This document shows, piece after piece, positions 4,275 to 36,832 of a stretch of DNA of 64,000 nucleotides. How positions within the stretch are numbered: position 1 is the first letter of the stretch; each line of letters opens with the position of its first letter. Source of the DNA: a virus; IMG/VR virus record IMGVR_UViG_3300035661_000037, positions 1 through 64,000 of that record; one strand, written 5' to 3'. The translations under genes were made by a program, and so were the position numbers. The notes below the pieces were generated by a model. That model saw only the letters and a program-made list of their open reading frames with translations, was not told the origin of the DNA and did not search any database.

Positions 4275-4652
4275 ACACAGAAAAGCAGTTGTGGATTTCC
4301 TGTAATACGTTAAGAATCAACAGTTACAACGACAAATAATACGGTTTTTTGGTGTTCGCCGTAAGGAACCTGCATGTAAGTTACTGTTATTATTAAATAT
4401 ATTTATATGTAATACACAGCACATATACTACATCGACTTTTTTCGCAGATAACGCTAAAACTCAACCCCTTGTGTAATTTTACATGCCGATTTACTTTTT
4501 AACGTTTTATGCCTCCGAAAGTCGCTGTAATAACTGTAATACACGAAATCCTCAACAATATCAACCACTTACCGTACTACGACTTTTTCAAAACCGTAGT
4601 ACGCCGCACCTTAAAACCCCAAAAGTATAACAAAAACGTAGTAAAAACCTTC
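4275..4652. other. Intergenic control region, no gene
   Basis: About 380 bp without a supported gene. It is AT-rich and holds further TGTAATAC motifs at 4301, 4408 and 4535, the first as CCTGTAATACGTTA. Short ORFs on both strands lack ribosome binding sites and run into the repeats at 4654, so they are not called. Confidence 0.5.
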
Positions 4653-4653
4653 C

Positions 4654-4766
4654 GAGATCCTGGTTTTTCTTCCGAGATCCTGGTTTTTCGAACCGAGATC
4701 CTGGTTTTGAAAACCAAGAATTGACATAGAAAAACCAAGATCCGTTGACAAAAACCAAGATCTTGG
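4654..4766. repeat. Six operator-like repeats around promoter
   Basis: Three direct copies of GAGATCCTGGTTTT (4654, 4674 and 4695) are followed by three copies of the inverse type AAAACCAAGATC (about 4710, 4731 and 4751). The last copy extends to a perfect 12-bp palindrome CCAAGATCTTGG (4755-4766) that fills the spacer of the rightward promoter. Cluster and placement fit cooperative repressor or initiator binding that controls the rightward operon. Confidence 0.7.
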
Positions 4767-4772
4767 TATACT
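4745..4772 (+). promoter_or_regulatory. Rightward promoter of the 476-aa gene
   Basis: TTGACA (4745-4750) and TATACT (4767-4772) with a 16-base spacer that consists of a palindromic operator copy. A second TTGACA at 4721 may be an alternative -35. Transcription would start about ten bases before the ATG at 4789, giving a very short leader. Confidence 0.75.
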
Positions 4773-4788
4773 TTTACAACGTTTTCCT

Positions 4789-6219
4789 ATGAACCGCCTA
4801 AAAATGAAAAATCTGCTAAAGCTAAACAATATTGCATCGACCACTAAAAACCGCCTGATAAATTCTGGAGTTATCTCAGACTCTTATACACTCGACATCA
4901 ACTTTTTAAGGCTGCGGTACTATTATATGCAGGCGGCAATGTTTACCTATAAAAACGACGATAGCAATAAACTTACAAAGTTCTCACCTGTATCCATCAG
5001 CGATTTACAGAGCATGTGTAGTGGGAAAGGATTCTTGCTGACTGATAAATCAATCGTAGAACTAACTTCTATTGACCAAGACTATCTTGGAAAAGTCCTA
5101 AGAGACCTCAAAATACCTGCGATCCATAATTCAAGTTTTCGAAACCCTACTAAACTATTTGAGAATATTGACACAAGTTTCTACGCATCAGAAGACATTG
5201 TATTGGTGTGCAAACATATAACAGACCCTAAAAAAGTCATAAAAACTCCGCTACTAGCAAACTCTAAACGGTATGCAGTTGGCTTAAACATAGCTCACCC
5301 AGAAGGAAAAGTAGGCGCTGCAAGAAGCCTTGGTATATTCCGCGAAGAATGTCAGAAACTAATGCAGCCTACCCCACCAGCACTAACCTACGACACCCTA
5401 GACTACAACCAGCTTAACTGGAGACATGTACTATCCCACCAAAACTTTGACGCTCTAATGAGCCTTGTAGACTGTCCTAACAACACTTACCTGCGACAAT
5501 ATATGAGTACAGACACCCCCAGCGACCAACAGCTTGCTGAACTATCAGAGAAAGCCCTAAAGCATCGCAGACGCACAAGCAACCTGCCGCAGGAAGATGA
5601 ACAGCCGTCACCAGAATTCCAAGCACCTGTCACACCCTCAATCACCACTCCACCAACCGCACCCGCCCAACAACCCGAGAAAATCAAGGATTTTAAAACT
5701 GTCTACCAAGTAATTGAAAATTTTATGGAAGTTGAGAACAGTTTAGAAGATAGTGTCTTTGCGAACTATGCGACCATGCTGCGAACCTTATACAAATCCA
5801 AGGGGGGGCGTCCGAAGCCTAAACTGATATTAGAAGAACTGCATCTTGCAGAGAAAGTATTAAACTATCTACCTAGCAACTGTGACTATAGCGCACAAAC
5901 GTATTTAGAGCCGAAAGACCTTGCATACCTGTCAGGTGCGGATACCAGAGGAGTATACAAAATAGCAGCCACTGCCGAAACCCCTGAGACTACCTTAAAG
6001 CTATCAGAGATATTAGACAACTTCATGCGGCTACACACCACGACCAGCTACCGTGCCGCATCCGAGTGCGATACCCTTGTACCTACTAACACAAACTTAG
6101 CCATTGCCGATGGTAGACCGGTGTTTATGAGTACTAACATAGCCAAAGCCGTTGCCCTGCTGCGAGCATATATAACGTCAATCGTAGCTAACCCTAGCGA
6201 GTTAGACACTCCTAACTAA
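4789..6219 (+). CDS. Unknown 476-aa protein, possible initiator or regulator
   Basis: A long soluble protein that I do not recognise. Residues 1-230 are mixed helical and basic; residues about 255-300 form a Pro/Thr/Gln-rich linker; the C-terminal part begins with a conserved-looking GGRPKPKLILEELHLAEKVL segment. The ATG has no Shine-Dalgarno sequence and a leader of only about ten bases, so it may be translated nearly leaderless. Being the first gene after an array of operator-like repeats, it may bind them (autoregulation or origin binding), but this is inference from position. The in-frame G7 tract at 5802-5808 is decoded normally. Confidence 0.8.
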   Translation: MNRLKMKNLLKLNNIASTTKNRLINSGVISDSYTLDINFLRLRYYYMQAAMFTYKNDDSNKLTKFSPVSISDLQSMCSGKGFLLTDKSIVELTSIDQDYLGKVLRDLKIPAIHNSSFRNPTKLFENIDTSFYASEDIVLVCKHITDPKKVIKTPLLANSKRYAVGLNIAHPEGKVGAARSLGIFREECQKLMQPTPPALTYDTLDYNQLNWRHVLSHQNFDALMSLVDCPNNTYLRQYMSTDTPSDQQLAELSEKALKHRRRTSNLPQEDEQPSPEFQAPVTPSITTPPTAPAQQPEKIKDFKTVYQVIENFMEVENSLEDSVFANYATMLRTLYKSKGGRPKPKLILEELHLAEKVLNYLPSNCDYSAQTYLEPKDLAYLSGADTRGVYKIAATAETPETTLKLSEILDNFMRLHTTTSYRAASECDTLVPTNTNLAIADGRPVFMSTNIAKAVALLRAYITSIVANPSELDTPN

Positions 6220-7394: not shown

Positions 7395-7871
7395 ATGCTT
7401 AGAATATGTATAGGTCTACTTAGTTTTTTAGTGTTTTCATCAATACAAGCGAATGGAGAACAACTTATTGTACCACCAAAACACATTGTGGATATAGCAA
7501 ATAGTTTGGCGTACCCTGATTTCCCAACAACACTAGACATTATTAGTATAATACGTGTTGAGAGTGCGTTTAACGCCAATGCAATAAACCCCGAGCGCTC
7601 CAGCCACCGTGGGGCTAGTATGGGGCTGATGCAGGTTCAGCGGGGATCGTTAAATGTTAGTACTAACATGCACCAAGGCGTTGCACTGCTTAGAGAGTAC
7701 TATATACGCCTAGGGCGCGATAAAGCAGCGGCGGTAAAGAGCTACAACATAGGTATTGGTGCGTATAAAAAAGGGAAGGCTACGATAAGTGCATCACAGT
7801 ATTATGCCAAGTTCAGAAAGCGGAGAGCAGAGTATATAAAGTATTATGTTAATAAGGTAGTTATTAACTAG
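7395..7871 (+). CDS. Secreted lytic transglycosylase (SLT family)
   Basis: A 158-residue protein with a Sec-type signal peptide (residues 1-20, MLRICIGLLSFLVFSSIQAN) and an SLT-like domain. Visible hallmarks are IIRVESAFNANAINP (catalytic Glu, about residue 56), a G-x-x-MGLMQV segment, GVALLREYYIRLG and KSYNIGIGAYKKG, matching the E-S-x-F, GLMQ and AYNxG motifs of VirB1/Slt enzymes. It would cleave the peptidoglycan glycan strand in the periplasm. It stands alone under its own promoter, 30 kb from the lysis cassette, so it may serve lysis, entry or modification of the infected cell wall. Confidence 0.85.
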   Translation: MLRICIGLLSFLVFSSIQANGEQLIVPPKHIVDIANSLAYPDFPTTLDIISIIRVESAFNANAINPERSSHRGASMGLMQVQRGSLNVSTNMHQGVALLREYYIRLGRDKAAAVKSYNIGIGAYKKGKATISASQYYAKFRKRRAEYIKYYVNKVVIN

Positions 7872-7975: not shown

Positions 7976-8158
7976 ATGAGTGGATGCAAAATGGTAATTA
8001 TAGAAAGTGGACAAGACTTAGAAATCACATGGGAGTGCTCTAATTGCGGCACAATTCATAAAGCAACAGATAAATTTGAAAGTTCAAAGTTTTGTCCTAA
8101 ATGCGGGTTAAAAATAACTAAATGGGTAGGGTTAGATGATTATGAGGATGACGCCTAA
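7976..8158 (+). CDS. Small zinc-ribbon protein, 60 aa
   Basis: A 60-residue protein with two CxxC knuckles (WECSNCGTIH and FCPKCGLK, about residues 25-48) and an acidic tail, a typical zinc ribbon of small phage proteins. It probably binds zinc and a nucleic acid or protein partner. Its stop codon is part of GCCTAACG, an attC-like motif shared by the ends of several following small genes. The ribosome binding site is a modest AAGAGAG. Confidence 0.65.
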   Translation: MSGCKMVIIESGQDLEITWECSNCGTIHKATDKFESSKFCPKCGLKITKWVGLDDYEDDA

Positions 8159-8237
8159 CGTAAAGCTAAAGATGTTCAACTACGACTATAAGACAGCAAA
8201 GCTCCGTGCCCGTGCTGTCCGAAGAGCAACATTTTAA
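8148..8237 (+). CDS. Possible basic micropeptide, 29 aa
   Basis: A 29-codon ORF that starts inside the end of the zinc-ribbon gene (GAGGATG) and ends at 8237. The product is strongly basic (TAKLRARAVRRATF at its C-terminus). A weak GAGG ribosome binding site and the overlap are the only support; it may be chance, or the remains of another gene in the cassette-like array. Confidence 0.3.
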   Translation: MTPNVKLKMFNYDYKTAKLRARAVRRATF

Positions 8238-8401
8238 ATTTTACTATTTGTTTAGTACAGTTTCACCAACTAGCATGATAATTTTTTGTAACGTTATCGC
8301 TGAAATGGCACGTAATGAAGAACGTTAAGCAATTGCTAATGAAGCCACGAACTTGGCGGTGCAAAGATGGATTAGTCTGGAATTATAAAGGAGATAGCTG
8401 C

Positions 8402-8554
8402 ATGTCAAAACTTTTTATACCGCCACCAAGCATGGAAAATTTAATTTCATACTTTGTCGAATGGATTGCAAAGAATATGGGAGCAAGGGTAACAATTAAT
8501 GTTTACTGGCATGATGGAAAACATTTTACAGAAGAATCGGATGGCAGGGGCTAA
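8402..8554 (+). CDS. Hypothetical protein, 50 aa
   Basis: The start at 8402 is chosen because AAGGAGA lies at proper distance; an earlier in-frame ATG at 8315 would add 29 residues (a PRTWRCKDG-type segment) but has no ribosome binding site. The 50-residue product, beginning MSKLFIPPPSMENLISYF, has no motif I recognise. Its stop codon falls in GGCTAACG, one of the attC-like motifs. The upstream in-frame part could be the remains of a separate small gene fused by loss of a stop. Confidence 0.55.
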   Translation: MSKLFIPPPSMENLISYFVEWIAKNMGARVTINVYWHDGKHFTEESDGRG

Positions 8555-8612
8555 CGATGAGGTAAGTGGCGTGACACTTTACAAGTTCACTTATCGAATA
8601 GAAAGTTATAGC
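8549..8612 (+). other. attC-like element 1
   Basis: GGCTAACG (8549-8556, containing the stop of the preceding gene) is matched 49 bases on by GTTATAGC (8605-8612), with an inner stem GGTAAGTG (8561-8568) against CACTTATC (8588-8595). The order of outer inverted core sites and inner pairing arms is that of integron attC recombination sites, although the right core deviates from GTTRRRY. A decayed or variant site is inferred. Confidence 0.35.
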
Positions 8613-8635
8613 ACATTTTACAAAGGATATTAGCA

Positions 8636-8818
8636 ATGACAACAGGGACAGGGCTTTTTGTACTCGGGGCATGGCTGGTTTTGGTGGCTGCATACGCCAC
8701 GGATAAAGTTAATGAAATTGGAATGAATCGTGCAAGAAATGTCGCGTGGTTAGCTACATTACTGGGGTTAGTTGTGACAGCGGCGTATCACCCTTGGGTA
8801 CTGGCTCATGCGTTCTAA
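8636..8818 (+). CDS. Two-TM membrane protein, 60 aa
   Basis: A 60-residue hydrophobic protein with membrane segments at about residues 4-21 and 36-56 and a charged loop between them (ATDKVNEIGMNRARN). The ribosome binding site AAAGGAT precedes the start. Its stop lies in TTCTAACG, the left core of the next attC-like element. Function unknown; it could be a small membrane toxin, holin-like or exclusion protein. Confidence 0.65.
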   Translation: MTTGTGLFVLGAWLVLVAAYATDKVNEIGMNRARNVAWLATLLGLVVTAAYHPWVLAHAF

Positions 8819-8888
8819 CGTTAAATTAACGGGCTACCAAATAAAGAAAGGATAACACAGAAATGCCCGACTTAGAGTTACATTAGGA
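8813..8888 (+). other. attC-like element 2
   Basis: TTCTAACG (8813-8820) pairs with CATTAGGA (8881-8888) as outer cores, and CGGGC (8830-8834) pairs with GCCCG (8865-8869) as inner arms; the whole element is 76 bases. This resembles integron attC sites (RYYYAAC...GTTRRRY, 57-141 bp). A seven-codon ORF with an AAAGGA site (8864-8887) falls inside the right half and is probably coincidental. Confidence 0.4.
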
Positions 8889-8895
8889 AGAGAAG

Positions 8896-9138
8896 ATGAG
8901 CAAAATTGATGACTTAAAAGGAATGCAAGTTGGTACAGTCGAACAAGTTTCAAAATTTAGAAGCGAAGCATTGTCTGAATTGTCGGCACAGACACATAGA
9001 GCAAATGTACTCGCAGCGACCATAAGAGATTTGATCGGGGTAATAACATTTGATGGGGAAACTAAGCAAGAGTTTATAGGTAGAGTACGTAATATTCTTG
9101 CTGATGACTCTGATAAACGCGTTCAGCACAAACTTTAA
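8896..9138 (+). CDS. Hypothetical protein, 80 aa
   Basis: An 80-residue soluble protein, mostly helical, with RVRNILADDSDKRVQHKL at the C-terminus. The ribosome binding site AGGAAGAG is well placed and overlaps the right end of the preceding attC-like element, as is usual where a cassette start follows an attC. It lacks a TAACG motif at its own end, unlike its neighbours. The function is unknown. Confidence 0.65.
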   Translation: MSKIDDLKGMQVGTVEQVSKFRSEALSELSAQTHRANVLAATIRDLIGVITFDGETKQEFIGRVRNILADDSDKRVQHKL

Positions 9139-9191
9139 AATTGGCCATATCGCTTTTTCGCATACCGAGTCGAACTACGAAATGATAAAAG

Positions 9192-9332
9192 ATGAAAATT
9201 ATTAACCGATTTATTTGTGTGATATTTGGGCATGATGCCGCCGATAATAGAGTTGCAAAAATGTACAACTTGCAGGATAGAACTTGTATGTGGCAATGCC
9301 CTAGATGCGGCGTAGGTGTACACGGCAAATGA
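9192..9332 (+). CDS. DUF1660-like small zinc-binding protein, 46 aa
   Basis: A 46-codon ORF with the pattern of the DUF1660 phage family: an N-terminal FICVIFGHD and a C-terminal MWQCPRCGVG, so that two Cys, a His and the CxxC pair could bind zinc. Length suits that family. The start has AAAAGATG with no strong ribosome binding site. It is followed after five bases by GACTAACG, another attC-like motif. Confidence 0.6.
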   Translation: MKIINRFICVIFGHDAADNRVAKMYNLQDRTCMWQCPRCGVGVHGK

Positions 9333-9393
9333 TGAAGACTAACGTAAAGGTAATGAGGGCGGGATGTGCACATACGAAGAAAGGAAAAGTATT

Positions 9394-9618
9394 ATGAGCA
9401 AAATTTCTGAGGTGCTTGACTATTTAAAACCAGCAACAGATGAAAATGGCAGCCCTATTTTGCAACATGAATATGACAGGTTGAAGGCTTTTGAACAGAT
9501 GATATTACAATCTAAGCCTGCCGCATGGATGAATGTAGATAAGCACGGTGGAGCTATGTTTTTTCGATCCCCAAACACATTTAACGCAGTGCCGCTAATT
9601 GTATCGCCTAACGTATAG
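9394..9618 (+). CDS. Hypothetical phage protein, 74 aa
   Basis: The ATG at 9394 is preferred because AAAGGAAAAG stands upstream; the ATG at 9364 would add ten residues with no benefit. The 74-residue product has an N-terminal helix followed by AAWMNVDKHGGAMFF and FNAVPLIVSP, a C-terminal pattern (AWxN..G..FF....xAxPL) common in small phage proteins of unknown function. GCCTAACG lies across its last codons and stop. Confidence 0.6.
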   Translation: MSKISEVLDYLKPATDENGSPILQHEYDRLKAFEQMILQSKPAAWMNVDKHGGAMFFRSPNTFNAVPLIVSPNV

Positions 9619-9652
9619 CAACGTGTAACACCTAACATAATTGGAGAATAAA

Positions 9653-9712
9653 ATGAGTGGCGACTTACTTAACTCGGCTGGAAAGATAGTAAACAAGGCC
9701 ATTGATAGTTAA
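9653..9712 (+). CDS. Possible micropeptide, 19 aa
   Basis: A 19-codon ORF (MSGDLLNSAGKIVNKAIDS) with a good TTGGAGA ribosome binding site. It could form an amphipathic helix. Its stop is embedded in AGTTAAGCC, which can be read as the right core of an attC-like site starting at 9606. Short length keeps confidence low. Confidence 0.35.
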   Translation: MSGDLLNSAGKIVNKAIDS

Positions 9713-9755
9713 GCCTTTCATAAAGCTAACTGGCTAATCCTGCAGAAAGAGAGAA

Positions 9756-9926
9756 ATGATACGATCTAAAAAAGCTACTGTAACAAAGAAAGAAATAATT
9801 AACTACATTTATTCTGTCACTTGCCCGCATTGTAAAACAGAGCTTCGCGGTGGAATAGGTAAGGGTGATTTACGAATTAAATGCTTTCAATGCAAGAAAC
9901 CAATTGAGTTAGTGCATGAGGACTAA
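9756..9926 (+). CDS. Small zinc-ribbon protein, 56 aa
   Basis: A 56-residue basic protein with two CxxC knuckles (VTCPHCKTEL and KCFQCKKP, about residues 23-48), the layout of a one-domain zinc ribbon (Com/YhfH-like regulators have similar spacing). An AAAGAGAG ribosome binding site precedes the ATG. The stop codon is part of GACTAATG, the last of the attC-like motifs. A nucleic-acid-binding role is likely but not specified by sequence. Confidence 0.6.
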   Translation: MIRSKKATVTKKEIINYIYSVTCPHCKTELRGGIGKGDLRIKCFQCKKPIELVHED

Positions 9927-9970
9927 TGTAGAGGTAACCGTGCTACCATTAACTGAAAGTGAGAATAGCA

Positions 9971-10228
9971 ATGACAAATGAAACAATAGCTTCATCTGAA
10001 CAAACTAGCAAGTCCGAGTTTAATGGCGGGTTAGAGCGCGAAATGATAAAAAACGCTCTGCTACATGAGGCTTCGCGGTGGAGTTATAATTATAAATTAC
10101 CGGTCTGGAAGGCCCTTAGATCGGCTGCAAAGCGCATGAATATCGACCTGTCAGAAGATGAATGCTATCGAGCAATGAAGCGCTCTAAGGCGAAATATAT
10201 GTTGCTTAAATTGGAGAATAGAAATTAG
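9971..10228 (+). CDS. Hypothetical protein, 85 aa
   Basis: The ATG at 9971 follows a GAGAATAG ribosome binding site; an in-frame ATG four codons upstream is possible. The product is basic in its C-terminal half, with WKALRSAAKRMNIDLSEDEC and RAMKRSKAKYMLLKLE forming probable helices. It ends in TAG, after which the same reading frame stays open for 54 codons (see 10229-10393). No family is recognised. Confidence 0.65.
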   Translation: MTNETIASSEQTSKSEFNGGLEREMIKNALLHEASRWSYNYKLPVWKALRSAAKRMNIDLSEDECYRAMKRSKAKYMLLKLENRN

Positions 10229-10393
10229 CGAACAAATAAATACCCTAATTGTAATATTGACTTAGAAGATTTTATAACAGGGAAAGATTTGTACGTATCA
10301 AATTTCGATGTTGAAATCTATACCGGAAGATTACATATGAACTGCTGCCCTGAATGCAAATACATGGATGATAGTTCCATATGGTTTGGGTAA
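10229..10393 (+). pseudogene. Zinc-ribbon ORF lacking a start codon
   Basis: Directly after the amber stop of the preceding gene, and in the same frame, 54 codons remain open. They encode YPNCNIDLEDF and later NCCPECKYMDDSS, a typical small phage zinc-ribbon layout with a plausible C-terminus, but no ATG, GTG or TTG start with a ribosome binding site exists. It is either a gene that lost its start by recombination, or is made by readthrough of the TAG. Sequence alone cannot decide. Confidence 0.45.
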
Positions 10394-11119: not shown

Positions 11120-11184
11120 TCCCTATAACACGGTAAAAGGATGCTAAAGTTTACGTATAATATATAACTTAATAGGAGAAAACA

Positions 11185-11421
11185 TTGAGGGAATTCGCTT
11201 TTGGAACATTATTACTAATAATACTAATCGGTATTGGTTTATCTTTTATAGCACCGACGATGTGTCGGGATGATACTGATGGAGACTCACTTCGTCGTAG
11301 TGGGTTAAAATTAAGAACAGATGCGCGTACGGGGTGCCAATATATTGAAGGTAGTTATGGTGGCATTACACCTAGACTTGATGGGGCAGGCACACAGATG
11401 GGGTGTCTACTAAAGAAATGA
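11185..11421 (+). CDS. DUF6440-like membrane-anchored protein, 78 aa
   Basis: TTG start at 11185 with AGGAGA eight bases upstream. Residues 5-24 form a membrane anchor (FGTLLLIILIGIGLSFIA); the remainder holds DARTGCQYIEGSYGGITPRL, which matches the DUF6440 pattern TGVQYL...GGxTPLLD of small phage and bacterial proteins. The globular part would face the periplasm or cytoplasm depending on topology. Function of the family is unknown. Confidence 0.65.
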   Translation: MREFAFGTLLLIILIGIGLSFIAPTMCRDDTDGDSLRRSGLKLRTDARTGCQYIEGSYGGITPRLDGAGTQMGCLLKK

Positions 11422-18050: not shown

Positions 18051-18559
18051 CAAACTATTTCTTTATATCTGATACGCATTTCGGGCACCAAGCGGCATGT
18101 CAGTTCTTACGCTCAGATGGTATTACAAAGATGAGACCATTCGAAACATCTGAAGAGATGGACGAAACAATCATTGACCGCTGGAACAAAGTCGTAAAGC
18201 CTAATGATCGCGTGTATGTCCTAGGTGACGTTGCAATGAAGCGTAAAGACATTCAGACTATTGGAAGGTGTTCTGGGCGTAAGGTACTGATACGCGGTAA
18301 CCACGACATCTTTAACATGGCTGACTATACCCCGTACTTTGACGACATTCGTGGTGTTCATGTGATGCCTACTAGAGATGCGATACTGTCACATATACCC
18401 CTACATCCTGACAGCGTTACACGATTTAAAACCAATATACACGGGCACTTGCATGACAATATTATTGAGGATCCTAGATATTTTAATGTATGTGTTGAGC
18501 ATACAGGATATGCGCCCATTAGTTATGAAGAAATTAAAGATAGCGGGAAGTCATTTTGA
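18047..18559 (+). CDS. Calcineurin-like metallophosphoesterase
   Basis: A 170-residue single-domain phosphoesterase with all metal-binding motifs: SDTHFGH (Asp9, His11), LGDVA (Asp61), GNHD (85-87), SHIP (His116) and HGHLH (132-136). It hydrolyses phosphodiester or phosphomonoester bonds; small phage members of this type are often 2',3'-cyclic or nucleotide phosphodiesterases. It overlaps the DUF4116 gene (ATGA) and the next methyltransferase gene (TGATG), so the three are translated together. Substrate not predictable. Confidence 0.88.
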   Translation: MTNYFFISDTHFGHQAACQFLRSDGITKMRPFETSEEMDETIIDRWNKVVKPNDRVYVLGDVAMKRKDIQTIGRCSGRKVLIRGNHDIFNMADYTPYFDDIRGVHVMPTRDAILSHIPLHPDSVTRFKTNIHGHLHDNIIEDPRYFNVCVEHTGYAPISYEEIKDSGKSF

Positions 18560-19401
18560 TGAACGTACTCTCGCTCTTTGATGGAATGTCCTGTGGTCAG
18601 CTTGCGCTTAACCGAGCAGGTATAAGCTACGATAACTATTATGCAAGTGAGGTAGATAAGCATGCGATAAAGGTAACACAGACTAACTATCCTGACACGA
18701 TCCAGCTAGGCGACGTGACTAAAGTCATCGCATCGGATTTACCACACATAGATCTCCTTATAGGAGGTAGTCCGTGCCAAGGGTTCTCTTTCGCAGGAAA
18801 ACAGTTAAACTTCGAAGACCCTCGAAGCAAGTTGTTCTTCGAGTTTGTACGACTGCTGAAAGAGTGTAAGCCGAAATACTTCCTGCTGGAGAATGTGGTC
18901 ATGAAGCAGGAGTATCAGGATGCCATTAGCGAGCACATGGGCTGCAAACCCATCAAGATAAACTCGGCCTTAGTATCGGCACAGAACCGTAACCGCTTAT
19001 ACTGGACTAATATACCTAACGTTATCCAGCCAGACGATATGGGTATTAAACTAGATGATTGTTTAGAACAGGGCTGGTACTCAAGTCGCAAGAAGTCTTA
19101 TTGTATTGATGCCAACTATGGAAAAGGTAGCAACCTGCGTAGGTATCTATATTGTGGGAGTAGACAATTGGTATTTAAAGATGGTTTTACTATCCCGCAC
19201 ATAGTGACAAAAGACACGGCGAATAAGTTTGGATCTGAGAATAAAGCCATGTGGCGTATGCTAACTCCACAAGAGTGTGAGAAGTTACAAACAGTACCAG
19301 AAGGATATACAGACACAGCCCCAAAAGTTTGGAGATATCATATGATAGGTAACGGTTGGACAGTGGATGTAATAGCACACATTTTAAAAGGTCTCAAATG
19401 A
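18559..19401 (+). CDS. DNA cytosine-5 methyltransferase, DNMT3-like type
   Basis: The ATG at 18559 overlaps the previous stop. The 280-residue protein has motif I VLSLFDGMSCGQLAL, motif IV GGSPCQGFSFAGKQ (Cys73), motif VI LLENVV (110-114), motif VIII SALVSAQNRNRLYW and motif X NGWTVDVIAHI, together with RMLTPQECEKLQTVPEGY. The short form with a small target domain resembles the phage methylases grouped with DNMT3-like enzymes. It is a second orphan cytosine methyltransferase, unrelated in detail to the one at 14286, so it probably has another target. Confidence 0.92.
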   Translation: MNVLSLFDGMSCGQLALNRAGISYDNYYASEVDKHAIKVTQTNYPDTIQLGDVTKVIASDLPHIDLLIGGSPCQGFSFAGKQLNFEDPRSKLFFEFVRLLKECKPKYFLLENVVMKQEYQDAISEHMGCKPIKINSALVSAQNRNRLYWTNIPNVIQPDDMGIKLDDCLEQGWYSSRKKSYCIDANYGKGSNLRRYLYCGSRQLVFKDGFTIPHIVTKDTANKFGSENKAMWRMLTPQECEKLQTVPEGYTDTAPKVWRYHMIGNGWTVDVIAHILKGLK

Positions 19402-32943: not shown

Positions 32944-35892
32944 ATGCTAAAATTCTTGCACGCCGTGTGGCCTGATACTGGCAATTACCTTGTAGCATAT
33001 CCGCTACCAAAAGATGAGTTTGGGCAAACAAAATATGCGCAGACATCTTTTTCTAATAAAGAGCTTGCGTATAATCAGGCAATACAGTGGTCTAAAGAAG
33101 GTAAGGATTCTTACTTCGCAGTAGGCTCTGTAGATAACCTTGGGCAATTTGCAAAACGCACTGGCTCAAATATGTTATCGTTTAAGGCGTTTATCGTTGA
33201 TATCGACTGCGGGCAAGATAAGTTTGATAAAGGTGATGGTTATCTAACACAGGATGATGCGTTTGAAGCGCTTAAGGTTTTCCTCGTAAAACTTAACTTA
33301 CCCAAACCAATTCTTGTAAACTCTGGCTATGGCTGGCATGTGTACTGGGCGCTAACCGAGGATATACCTTCCGAGCGCTGGGTAGCGGTTTCAAAAAAGT
33401 TTAAGCAAGTTATCTCACATTCAGGACTAATCGCAGATAAGACACGTACCGCTGACCGCGCTAGTGTTCTACGAGTGCCTAGTACCATAAACTATAAGCG
33501 TGATACGCAAGCACCCGTAACAGTCATGAAGTGGTCAGAGCCGTGTACGTTAGAAGATTTTGTACAACCTATACAAGACTATTTTGACGCCAATAACCTA
33601 GTTGAAGCAGAATCTCAGCAGCGTGAAGTTTTATCAGAAGATGTAGCACTTCTAAAACAGTTTGGGATCGAACAAACAATTTCTGAGTATCCGCCCGCAG
33701 ACTTTCAGCTAATACTCGAAGGCTGTCAGACGATGCAGTATGCCGCTGACAACAACGAACTGCTAAACTACGACCAGTGGTGTGCAGCATTATCAGTCGC
33801 TAATGCTTGCGAAGATTTTGAAGGTGCTGTCAAGCAGCTGTCAGAAAATCATCCTGACTATAACCAGTCAGTCGCAGAGCATAAGGCAGCAGAATTCTTA
33901 CCATCAACATGTGGCAGAATGCGCGACATATTTGCTAGTTGTGCTGGTTGTGAGAGGAGTAATAACTCACCTTATGGTATCGGGTTTTCTATGCCATCAG
34001 AACATACAATCGATGGGGTGTCGAAGGCGGTTAGTATTATGCCATTTGCAGGCGCTACAGTAGCCGATGAGTTTGGGGAGTTTGCAGAACAGCCTAACGG
34101 TGTGATGGTTGATGGCTTCGATATCGAATATCCAGCACCCTACATCCTGACTACTGGGGGGATACATGTAAAAGTGGAGGGTGACAAAAGTGATTATACA
34201 CTTACAATTTGCCAGTACCCTATTAGATTTGTTGCACGTACCTCAGATTTCGCACTAGGGGAAGACGTAGCAAAATTTCAGATATTGTTTCCGCAAGATG
34301 GCTGGAGAGATTTTACGCTCAAGTTGAGGGACACAGTTGATTCAAAAGGCGGCAAGGTATGCAGCGAACTGGCGTCACAAGGGTGTATAATACCTAGTAA
34401 AGAACAAAAGTATATGGGAGAGTTTGTGAGCGCGTATCTACAATCTATTATTAACAAAATGGCGGCGGCTAAGAACTATGCACAGCTTGGTTGGGCTGAC
34501 GATGGTAACGTATTTGTTCTGAGCGACAAGTCAGTAAATCTTGACGGTACCCATACACTGTCTGGAATGTCGTCTACTATCGCCCCTATCTCAAAAGCCA
34601 TGAAGAAGAGAGGCACTCTCGAAGATTGGTTGAAGGTTATCAACGTTTATGCCCGAGACGGCTATGAACCTTACGCATTTGGGCACTCTATAGCTTATGG
34701 AAGTCTTTTATTCCGCTTTACCGACTATGAAGGTGCCGTGGTGTCGTTGCTAGGTAACAGCGGTTCAGGCAAGTCAACAATCCTCAAGACTATCAACAGT
34801 GTGTTTGGGCATCCGAAAGACCTTATGCTTCAGCAGCGTGATAACGAGGTTGCCAAGTTTGTACAGATAGCAGCGATGAATAATATCGCACCTTGCTATG
34901 ATGAAATATCTAATATTGAGCCGAAAGAACTGTCTGACCTGTGCTACGGCATCTCGCAAGGACGTGACAAGCGCAGGGGTGCTCAGAAAGGCGGCTTACG
35001 CGATGATGAACTAACATGGTGCTGTATCATGCCAGTAACATCAAACCACAGTCTATATGAGCGTCTAGGAACTCTTAAATCGGATGCCAGTGCGGAGGCT
35101 ATGCGCGTGTTCGAGTATCATGTACGTACTGACCTGCATCAAATGGGTAAACGGGAGTCGCAAGATACGTTTGAACCCCTGTCTGATAATTATGGTCACG
35201 CTGGTGAGATATTCGTAACTTGGTTAATGCAGAATAAAACACATGCTAAAGAACGTGTAAAATACTGGTTTAACCGTTTTGACGAAGAGGCTAACGTGCC
35301 AAGCAACGAGCGCTACTGGTCAGCGATCGTAGGTGCGACATTGGCAGGTGCTGAAATGTCTGCGAAACTTGGTCTAAATACCTTCGATGTTGAAAAGCTA
35401 TTCAAGTTTTCATTGGAGCAAGTCGTAGTTGCCCGTGGCTCAGTCAACGATAATAAACGTTCACCATCGGCGCTATTAGTAGACTTTATGAACAGCCAGA
35501 TACGCTCTACAATCGTCTTGGGTGGGGGTACAGTCGATAAAGGTAAGGACTCCCCGTTATGGGTTAAGCAAGAGCCTAGCAATGGCTTACAGGTACGTAT
35601 AGAGATCGACAAGAACGTTGCATACGTCTCACGCGCGGCAATCAGGCGGTGGATAACTGAAGGTGGTGGCGACTATTTCGGAATCAGGGCTGAGTTGATG
35701 AACAAGAAGATACTGCTCAGTGAGAAGACTGATAAAGTGTTGTCGGCAGGATCTCAGACACTCAAGACTGGTCAGTTACCGTGCTGGTTAATTGACCTGA
35801 ACCATAGAGAGATGAGTGGCGGCGCACAGTTGCAGGTTATTAAACTTAGGCAGACTGATGAGAAAGTAGTTGCTAATGGCGATCCGTTTTGA
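32944..35892 (+). CDS. Prim-pol primase/helicase fusion protein
   Basis: A 982-residue protein. The N-terminal domain is an archaeo-eukaryotic-type primase-polymerase: FIVDIDCG (Asp86/Asp88), NSGYGWHVYW (S-G-x-G-x-H, residues 127-135) and DRASVLRVPSTINYK (from Asp171). A linker with Cys-rich CGRMRDIFASCAGCE follows, then a DUF927-like ATPase domain with GWADDGNVFVLSD, Walker A GNSGSGKST (Lys610) and a Walker B-like APCYDEISN. It probably primes and unwinds DNA for the family A polymerase. The last 34 bases are repeated exactly at the end of the next gene. Confidence 0.9.
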   Translation: MLKFLHAVWPDTGNYLVAYPLPKDEFGQTKYAQTSFSNKELAYNQAIQWSKEGKDSYFAVGSVDNLGQFAKRTGSNMLSFKAFIVDIDCGQDKFDKGDGYLTQDDAFEALKVFLVKLNLPKPILVNSGYGWHVYWALTEDIPSERWVAVSKKFKQVISHSGLIADKTRTADRASVLRVPSTINYKRDTQAPVTVMKWSEPCTLEDFVQPIQDYFDANNLVEAESQQREVLSEDVALLKQFGIEQTISEYPPADFQLILEGCQTMQYAADNNELLNYDQWCAALSVANACEDFEGAVKQLSENHPDYNQSVAEHKAAEFLPSTCGRMRDIFASCAGCERSNNSPYGIGFSMPSEHTIDGVSKAVSIMPFAGATVADEFGEFAEQPNGVMVDGFDIEYPAPYILTTGGIHVKVEGDKSDYTLTICQYPIRFVARTSDFALGEDVAKFQILFPQDGWRDFTLKLRDTVDSKGGKVCSELASQGCIIPSKEQKYMGEFVSAYLQSIINKMAAAKNYAQLGWADDGNVFVLSDKSVNLDGTHTLSGMSSTIAPISKAMKKRGTLEDWLKVINVYARDGYEPYAFGHSIAYGSLLFRFTDYEGAVVSLLGNSGSGKSTILKTINSVFGHPKDLMLQQRDNEVAKFVQIAAMNNIAPCYDEISNIEPKELSDLCYGISQGRDKRRGAQKGGLRDDELTWCCIMPVTSNHSLYERLGTLKSDASAEAMRVFEYHVRTDLHQMGKRESQDTFEPLSDNYGHAGEIFVTWLMQNKTHAKERVKYWFNRFDEEANVPSNERYWSAIVGATLAGAEMSAKLGLNTFDVEKLFKFSLEQVVVARGSVNDNKRSPSALLVDFMNSQIRSTIVLGGGTVDKGKDSPLWVKQEPSNGLQVRIEIDKNVAYVSRAAIRRWITEGGGDYFGIRAELMNKKILLSEKTDKVLSAGSQTLKTGQLPCWLIDLNHREMSGGAQLQVIKLRQTDEKVVANGDPF

Positions 35893-36633
35893 GTACATTT
35901 AAGCTAAAACAAGGCGACACCCTTGAACTGATGGCTACACTACCTGATAAGTGTGTTGATATGATTCTGTGCGACCTACCGTATGGTACAACTGCATGTA
36001 AGTGGGACACTGTGATACCATTTGAACCATTGTGGGAGCAGTATAAGCGGCTATGCAAAGGGAGTATTGTTTTATTTTCATCGCAGCCATTCACTACAGA
36101 ACTCATACATTCTAATTTGGGGGGGCTATAGATACTCTTGGGTCTGGAATAAGAATTTTTCCACTAATTTTTTACACGCCTCAAGAATGCCCCTGCGTAA
36201 TACCGAGGACATTTGTATATTCGGGAAAGGTACTTACAATCCTCAAAAGACTGACGGGCACATACCCACACAATCGGCAATAGGGGCATCCAATGGCGTA
36301 CTCTACCACGGAAAAAATAAGCGTAACTATGTTGGAGGAGATACCACCAGATTCCCTACAACACTTTTAGAATTTGATGCGCACGACCCAAAAAATAGAC
36401 AACACCCAACCCAAAAGCCCGTACCTCTCTGCGAGTATCTTATCAAGACCTACACCAACGCAGGCGAGTGGGTGCTAGATAACACAATGGGCAGTGGTAC
36501 AACTGGCGTGGCTTGCATGAATACCGGAAGGAACTTCATCGGCATCAAGCGAGACGACAAGTATTTTGAGATTGCTAAGGCACGGATAACGGAAGCAAGT
36601 GAGAAAGTAGTTGCTAATGGCGATCCGTTTTGA
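35859..36633 (+). repeat. 34-bp direct repeat bounding a methyltransferase gene
   Basis: TGAGAAAGTAGTTGCTAATG plus the next 14 bases occurs identically at 35859-35892 and 36600-36633. Each copy encodes the same last residues (EKVVANGDPF) and the stop codon: once for the prim-pol protein, once for the methyltransferase. The unit between is exactly one gene, as expected if a 741-bp segment had inserted with duplication of the 3' end of the older gene. Confidence 0.9.
35889..36633 (+). pseudogene. N6-adenine/N4-cytosine methyltransferase, frameshifted
   Basis: TTG start at 35889 (TTGA overlap). The first 80 codons give TLPDKCVDMILCDLPYGTTA (motif IV, DLPY) and stop just after a G7 tract (36119-36125). 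The other frame then continues with YRYSWVWNKNFSTNFL, QHPTQKPVPLCEYL and motif I NTMGSGTTGVA to 36633. With six G residues the two parts join perfectly as a beta-class methyltransferase of about 247 residues. Either the gene is broken, or it is phase-variable through slippage in the G tract, or the base count is a sequencing error. Confidence 0.85.
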
Positions 36634-36758: not shown

Positions 36759-36832
36759 GACTTGTTAGCACAAGGGTAGTGCGGCGGCGTTCAAAGTCGT
36801 TTATCGCAGTTCGATTCTGTGGCTCGTCTCCA
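36759..36832 (+). tRNA. tRNA with anticodon UCA (opal-reading)
   Basis: A 74-base cloverleaf with encoded CCA: D-stem GCAC/GTGC with GG in the loop; anticodon stem GCGGC/GTCGT around loop GTTCAAA (U33, anticodon TCA at 36791-36793); T-stem CGCAG/CTGTG with TTCGATT. U8, A14, G18G19, A21 and A58 are all present. The acceptor stem GACTTGT/GCTCGTC has two mismatches in the middle. Discriminator U is typical of tRNA-Cys, not of Trp or Sec. It should read UGA if functional. Confidence 0.65.

Follow-up and report, generated by a model that had tools for sequence, protein, structure and literature searches.

Gene cassettes and attC-derived half-sites in the early region of a phage genome

The early region of this phage carries a row of small genes which repeatedly end on the same short motif, and the question arises whether these genes are integron cassettes and, if so, what has become of their recombination sites. 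The window analysed is the first 64 kb (64,000 nucleotides) of an 82.7 kb IMG/VR virus record, and all features of the row described here are on its + strand. A preliminary description, which took the genes for decayed cassettes of an environmental integron, had listed six small genes in a row with motifs at 8153, 8549, 8813, 9337, 9606 and 9921, and all six motifs are found at these positions. The row is not strictly one of six genes: an additional gene encoding 80 amino acids (8896-9138) lies between the third and fourth sites, with only a degenerate half-site at about 9127-9147, and a 19 amino acid ORF (9652-9711) precedes a further weak site at 9713-9733.

The first gene (7976-8158) encodes a 60 amino acid zinc-ribbon protein similar to the restriction alleviation protein Lar (phrog_6422, E 1.1e-6, with a zinc-ribbon Pfam match), the second (8402-8554) a protein of 50 amino acids, and the third (8636-8818) one of 60 amino acids which, by its sequence, is hydrophobic and probably a membrane protein. 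After the 80 amino acid gene, which is the fourth, follow the genes of a 46 amino acid protein with a Cys pair (9192-9332), a 74 amino acid protein (9394-9618), a zinc-ribbon-like protein of 56 amino acids with weak zinc-ribbon matches (9756-9926), and an 85 amino acid protein (9971-10228). The TAA of the motif is itself the stop codon at 8153, 8549, 8813 and 9921. The gene ending near 9337 has a TGA stop a few bases 5' of the motif, and that ending near 9606 a TAG stop (9616-9618) just 3' of it. No Rfam family matched at the sites. Against isolate phages, blastn of the region matched a tRNA and nothing else, and tblastn of three small window proteins gave no match.

Half-sites at the gene ends

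The short motif YTAACG occurs in the window no more often than expected (57 observed, 71 expected) and therefore by itself is proof of nothing. Unlike the short motif, the element of about 21 nt to which it extends (CTAACGTAAAGGTAA...), corresponding to the cleavage-side half of attC, is highly non-random. It is present with no mismatch at 9339, one at 8155 and two at 9923, the copies at 8551 and 8815 also being within 0-3 mismatches, while chance would give about 0.15 matches at two mismatches. For comparison with bacteria a half-site profile, the reverse complement of L'-R', was made from 117 bacterial (Methylomonadaceae) attC and no phage sites, and was scanned over both strands of all 82.7 kb. 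The five top scores of the genome, every one on the + strand, are those at 8813-8833 (TTCTAACGTTAAATTAACGGG, 19.8 bits, the best in the genome), 9337-9357 (GACTAACGTAAAGGTAATGAG, 17.6 bits), 9921-9941 (15.2 bits), 8549-8569 (GGCTAACGATGAGGTAAGTGG, 14.4 bits) and 8153-8173 (GCCTAACGTAAAGCTAAAGAT, 14.2 bits), so that five of the six motifs first described are the genome's five best matches to the bacterial profile. The sites at 9713 (8.9 bits) and 9606-9626 (GCCTAACGTATAGCAACGTGT, 6.2 bits) score too weakly to be called in isolation; the latter lies at a cassette edge set by homology. Cleavage-side halves thus stand at gene ends at five sites of at least 14 bits and at two weak ones.

Matches of at least 14 bits are expected 0.35 times per shuffled genome and 0.57 times per 82.7 kb in control phages, and the five found here lie on one strand within 1.8 kb, where shuffled genomes (n = 300) gave a maximum of two. 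The half-sites of the window are shown to be attC-derived. A mere chance grouping of a common hexamer would agree with YTAACG being no commoner in the window than expected; it is refuted by the clustering of the long element, seen in 0 of 300 shuffles, and by the cassette homology described below, and its probability is close to nil.

Complete sites are another matter. Two covariance models were used, R1 from 23 attC, all bacterial, with an alignment of strong covariation, and R2 from 117 attC of the Methylomonadaceae type. With full-length models no significant match was obtained in the window, the best being 9921-10036 (E 0.6-0.7), and in single-strand folding no window site beats its shuffles, as a control site from the syntenic relative G001 does (z -3.4). 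The imperfect inverted elements of 64-76 bases which had been proposed fold like shuffled sequence (z -0.15 and -0.46), and the right cores proposed near 8605 and 8881 correspond to best matches at background level (p 0.14, a possible weak second half near 8589-8611, and p 0.48). The decayed right core at about 8881-8887 is supported by the homologous site 11129-11213 of another IMG/VR phage record, G169. Both halves are found only at 9921-10036, where the cleavage half is followed, 93 nt past 9921, by the genome's best match to the other half (10014-10036, 12.0 bits, p 0.006). This right half, missed in the preliminary description, lies within the next gene, the N-terminus of whose 85 amino acid product is the attC second half translated (EFNGGLE, with GFNAGLG in G001). 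None of the remaining right halves is above background. Since the models and folding are negative and second halves are mostly absent, the window holds attC half-sites and not intact, foldable attC (R'', L'', L', R').

By the usual count for a CALIN, at least two model-detected attC within a few kb, the window has none, G001 seven and G169 eleven. The array might nevertheless be a still active CALIN, its sites folding and recombining and the models being insensitive to an AT-rich type, in line with the two halves kept at 9921-10036 and the support from G169 for the right core at 8881. However, the same models find the seven sites of G001 and the eleven of G169, no fold rises above shuffles and most second halves are absent, which makes activity of this kind quite unlikely. 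The preliminary description had named failure of attC covariance models as grounds for giving up the cassettes; the models do indeed find no attC in the window, and this objection is overturned by the half-site profile and by the relatives of the region.

Cassettes shared with other phages

A primase search led to the closest relative, G001 (IMGVR_UViG_3300022214_000006; 61% in the primase), and a search anchored on the SLT gene gave no relative besides it. Counterparts of the window genes 4789-6219 and 7395-7871 (SLT) stand in the same order in G001, and the region between them carries textbook attC sites, seven with R1 (E 1e-11 to 2.5e-3) and the same seven with R2 (E at most 1e-4). One of the attC-bounded cassettes of G001 encodes a DNA methyltransferase; the homologous gene of the window is located elsewhere, at 35889-36633.

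Other viral contigs were collected with an attC pattern blind to orientation, and tblastn in them matched two window genes with 98% and 88% protein identity. The first block, 8369-8555, comprises the whole second cassette and has 94% DNA identity to 4199-4385 of contig L233 and to 18400-18586 of G169. It opens, in L233, at the core GTTAGCC of an intact attC and closes at GGCTAAC; in the window the 5' boundary is a decayed core (GGATTAGTC) and the 3' boundary GGCTAAC. The second block, 9373-9614, holds the sixth cassette and is 85% identical in DNA to 979-1220 of contig L231, where the cassette is flanked by intact attC at 909-967 and 1212-1269. It closes at GCCYAACGT, and its 5' edge is about 12 nt past the core. 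Both blocks are thus delimited as cassettes are (G/TTRRRY ... RYYYAA/C), with attC cores at three of the four edges. A search of whole records added two matches in G169: window 8888-9131, at the fourth gene, is 86% identical in DNA to 10026-10269, where the gene terminates in the half-site GCCCAACGTAAAGGTAAGTGG; the site at 11130-11181 is 87% identical to window 8814-8865.

The cassette origin can be taken as proven by this homology, which stops at or near attC cores, and two window genes, probably three, are cassettes present also in unrelated phages. The donor contig G168 carries genes for a phage portal, terminase, major head protein and replicative helicase, and G169 a phage lysis amidase; neither has any protein match to the window outside the shared cassettes. 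Cleavage halves number 19 in G169 and lie on a single strand; a full site is detected by model at 11 of them and at 8 none, so half-site erosion recurs. The view of the genes as decayed environmental-integron cassettes is upheld because window genes are cassettes beside intact attC in other phages, and is further supported by the attC sites of G001 and the half-site profile.

Two other explanations are affected by these comparisons. The motif could be a regulatory or translational gene-end element of the phage (stop context, processing or re-initiation) unrelated to integrons, as its repetition, its position at stop codons and the loss of any hairpin would allow. But the match to bacterial attC halves extends over about 21 nt, spacer and L box included, and is the best in the genome, and the same genes adjoin intact attC elsewhere, a cassette homology which contradicts an element of this type and leaves it very improbable. 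Alternatively, the cassettes could be shared by ordinary homologous or illegitimate recombination, attC being a passive edge sequence. This would suit a phage without IntI and the one block edge lying some 12 nt off the core; against it stand the two best blocks, with attC cores at three of their four edges, and the lack of any other protein match between the phages, and we consider it unlikely.

A profile search of all ORFs of the phage record found no IntI (best E 0.68), in agreement with the earlier statement that no integrase is present, and none was found in the stretches of G001 searched. With no IntI there is no complete integron (intI plus attI), and the region resembles a CALIN in having no integron integrase nearby. 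We conclude with high confidence that the region is an integrase-less cassette array within the phage early operon; the array has kept its genes and lost most attC hairpins, of which the cleavage halves are left.

Gene orientation relative to attC

In bacterial cassettes the gene ends at the R'' side of attC. In the window, as in G001, G168 and G169, genes end at the R' side, i.e. they are antiparallel to attC. The arrangement had been described as exactly that of integron cassettes, and this has to be corrected: at every window site the sequence following the stop scores as the cleavage half, the motif being the reverse complement of L'-R' and not the R'' left core, so gene polarity is inverted with respect to attC and the parallel genes of bacterial arrays are not seen.

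As spurious ORFs in GC-rich contigs can mislead counts based on length, stricter ORF rules and a homology test were applied. The strict count gave 57 parallel and 2 antiparallel ORFs in host arrays, 11 and 32 in viral contigs found by pattern, and 6 and 25 in viral contigs bearing IntI. In the homology test, antiparallel ORFs of viral cassettes matched at least 25 Pfam families, among them N6/N4, C5 and Dam methyltransferases, Mom and Lar, and parallel ORFs one. In host cassettes, which served as control, the 32 families matched by parallel ORFs are those of bacterial cargo, and the few Pfam matches of antiparallel ORFs are of phage type (gp49_66, DUF7446, Dam, KorA), which suggests a prophage or phage-pool origin for the latter. 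From the inversion it would seem that phages and bacteria have separate cassette pools. Not every phage shows antiparallel genes, those of the isolate TJE1 being parallel. Several viral contigs with attC carry tail, terminase, primase or phage integrase genes. Ambiguous strand calls were considered as a source of the inversion and rejected, the preference for one strand exceeding 9 bits at each viral site.

Some further features of these loci were observed. Cassettes are antiparallel in the viral loci L222-L257, L109-L180, L016, L264 and L266, where genes for DNA modification and anti-restriction are frequent among the cargo that can be identified, and the opposite in host loci L098 and L188-L221, which are chromosomal arrays of the same attC family. 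L120, L123, L150 and L116, which have phage integrase, tail or primase genes, carry integrons complete with IntI, attC and cassettes, and in L120, L132 and L150 intI and the cassette genes are co-directional. In L264 (10031-10889), L098 (723-899) and the window (9394-9618), attC halves of phage and host cassettes are read in frame as C-terminal tails (for example PNVKVSG or PNVKLTG).

Relation to known arrays and possible mechanism

Among loci found by means of IntI, an attC of the Methylobacter MAG JAUXTH010000047.1 has the same half (GCCTAACGTAAAGCTAACCGG); Methylobacter belongs to the Methylomonadaceae, and the attC family is present in 72 of 151 genomes of that family (E up to 1e-6). Because comparable halves are found in other Proteobacteria too, a methanotroph is no more than the likely host of the phage. 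The sedentary chromosomal integrons of Methylomonadaceae (JAUXTH010000047.1 and relatives) share with the window the attC family, with the same half and spacer, and differ in having complete sites, IntI, parallel genes (57:2) and cargo such as glyoxalase and GNAT. Phage integrons and CALINs of IMG/VR (G001, G168, G169, L228, L251, L120, L150) resemble the window in attC family, antiparallel genes and phage cargo, and two window cassettes occur in such contigs; there, unlike in the window, most attC are intact and some contigs encode IntI.

CALINs have been described in the virulent phages Tetrasphaera TJE1, Polaribacter P12002L and Pseudoalteromonas PH101 (Qi et al. 2023, PMC9892861); of the six sites assayed in that study, five showed activity with IntI1. 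Like the window, these are clusters of attC type without IntI and with a cargo of small genes, which there includes DNA methyltransferases; their sites are complete and the genes of TJE1 parallel, whereas the window has mostly half-sites and antiparallel genes. The window is an eroded array of this kind, having the cassette boundaries and lacking the model-detected attC of a CALIN. Phage attC clusters are already known. Erosion to half-sites and the inversion of gene polarity seem to be new; the open literature searched (subscription papers and preprints lay outside its scope) yielded no description of either.

In the mechanism we propose, IntI acting in trans, from an integron-bearing host or from IntI-carrying phages, would insert or exchange cassettes at attC during infection, and expression would come from phage promoters and not from an integron Pc. 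Reading from phage promoters would favour cassettes with the gene facing opposite to bacterial ones. IntI would recombine the folded attC strand, which in antiparallel arrays is the coding strand. Recombination rises when the recombinogenic strand is on the lagging-strand template (PMC5371416), and such an effect may apply to this array. With loss of the far half no hairpin could fold and the cassettes would be locked as fixed phage genes, while the cleavage core would persist, partly protected by holding stop codons or coding sequence. The cargo here includes Lar-like and zinc-ribbon proteins, and that of related phage arrays DNA methyltransferases, Mom, Dam and Lar; it probably consists of small host-takeover or counter-defence proteins.

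More generally, we find it plausible, and rather probable, that phages of methanotrophic and related Proteobacteria share a cassette pool of their own, with genes antiparallel to attC and read from phage promoters towards attI/IntI, through which unrelated phages would trade small anti-host and DNA-modification genes until the arrays lock as attC erode to half-sites. The clutter of small genes in early regions could thus arise when unrelated phages exchange cassettes in the integron manner and the sites then erode, which would hide the mechanism from programs that search for attC. A role of host IntI in the exchange of phage genes can now be tested, as can selection on cassette orientation by the direction of transcription or replication.

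Other repeats were noted in the window. The methyltransferase region, which follows the primase gene, is flanked by identical 33 bp direct repeats (35860-35892 and 36601-36633); the methyltransferase copy is divided over two reading frames close to a G run, and adjoins a tRNA with anticodon TCA (36759-36832, ARAGORN; selenocysteine-like or opal suppressor). At 2730-2890 there are two near-identical tandem copies of about 80 bp (CTTCCAAAAAATAA.CGCTAGGATGCCC...), apparently non-coding and possibly a replication or regulatory element. Short repeats around CCGAGATCCTGGTTTT at 4650-4770, just upstream of the gene 4789-6219, resemble binding sites (putative iterons).
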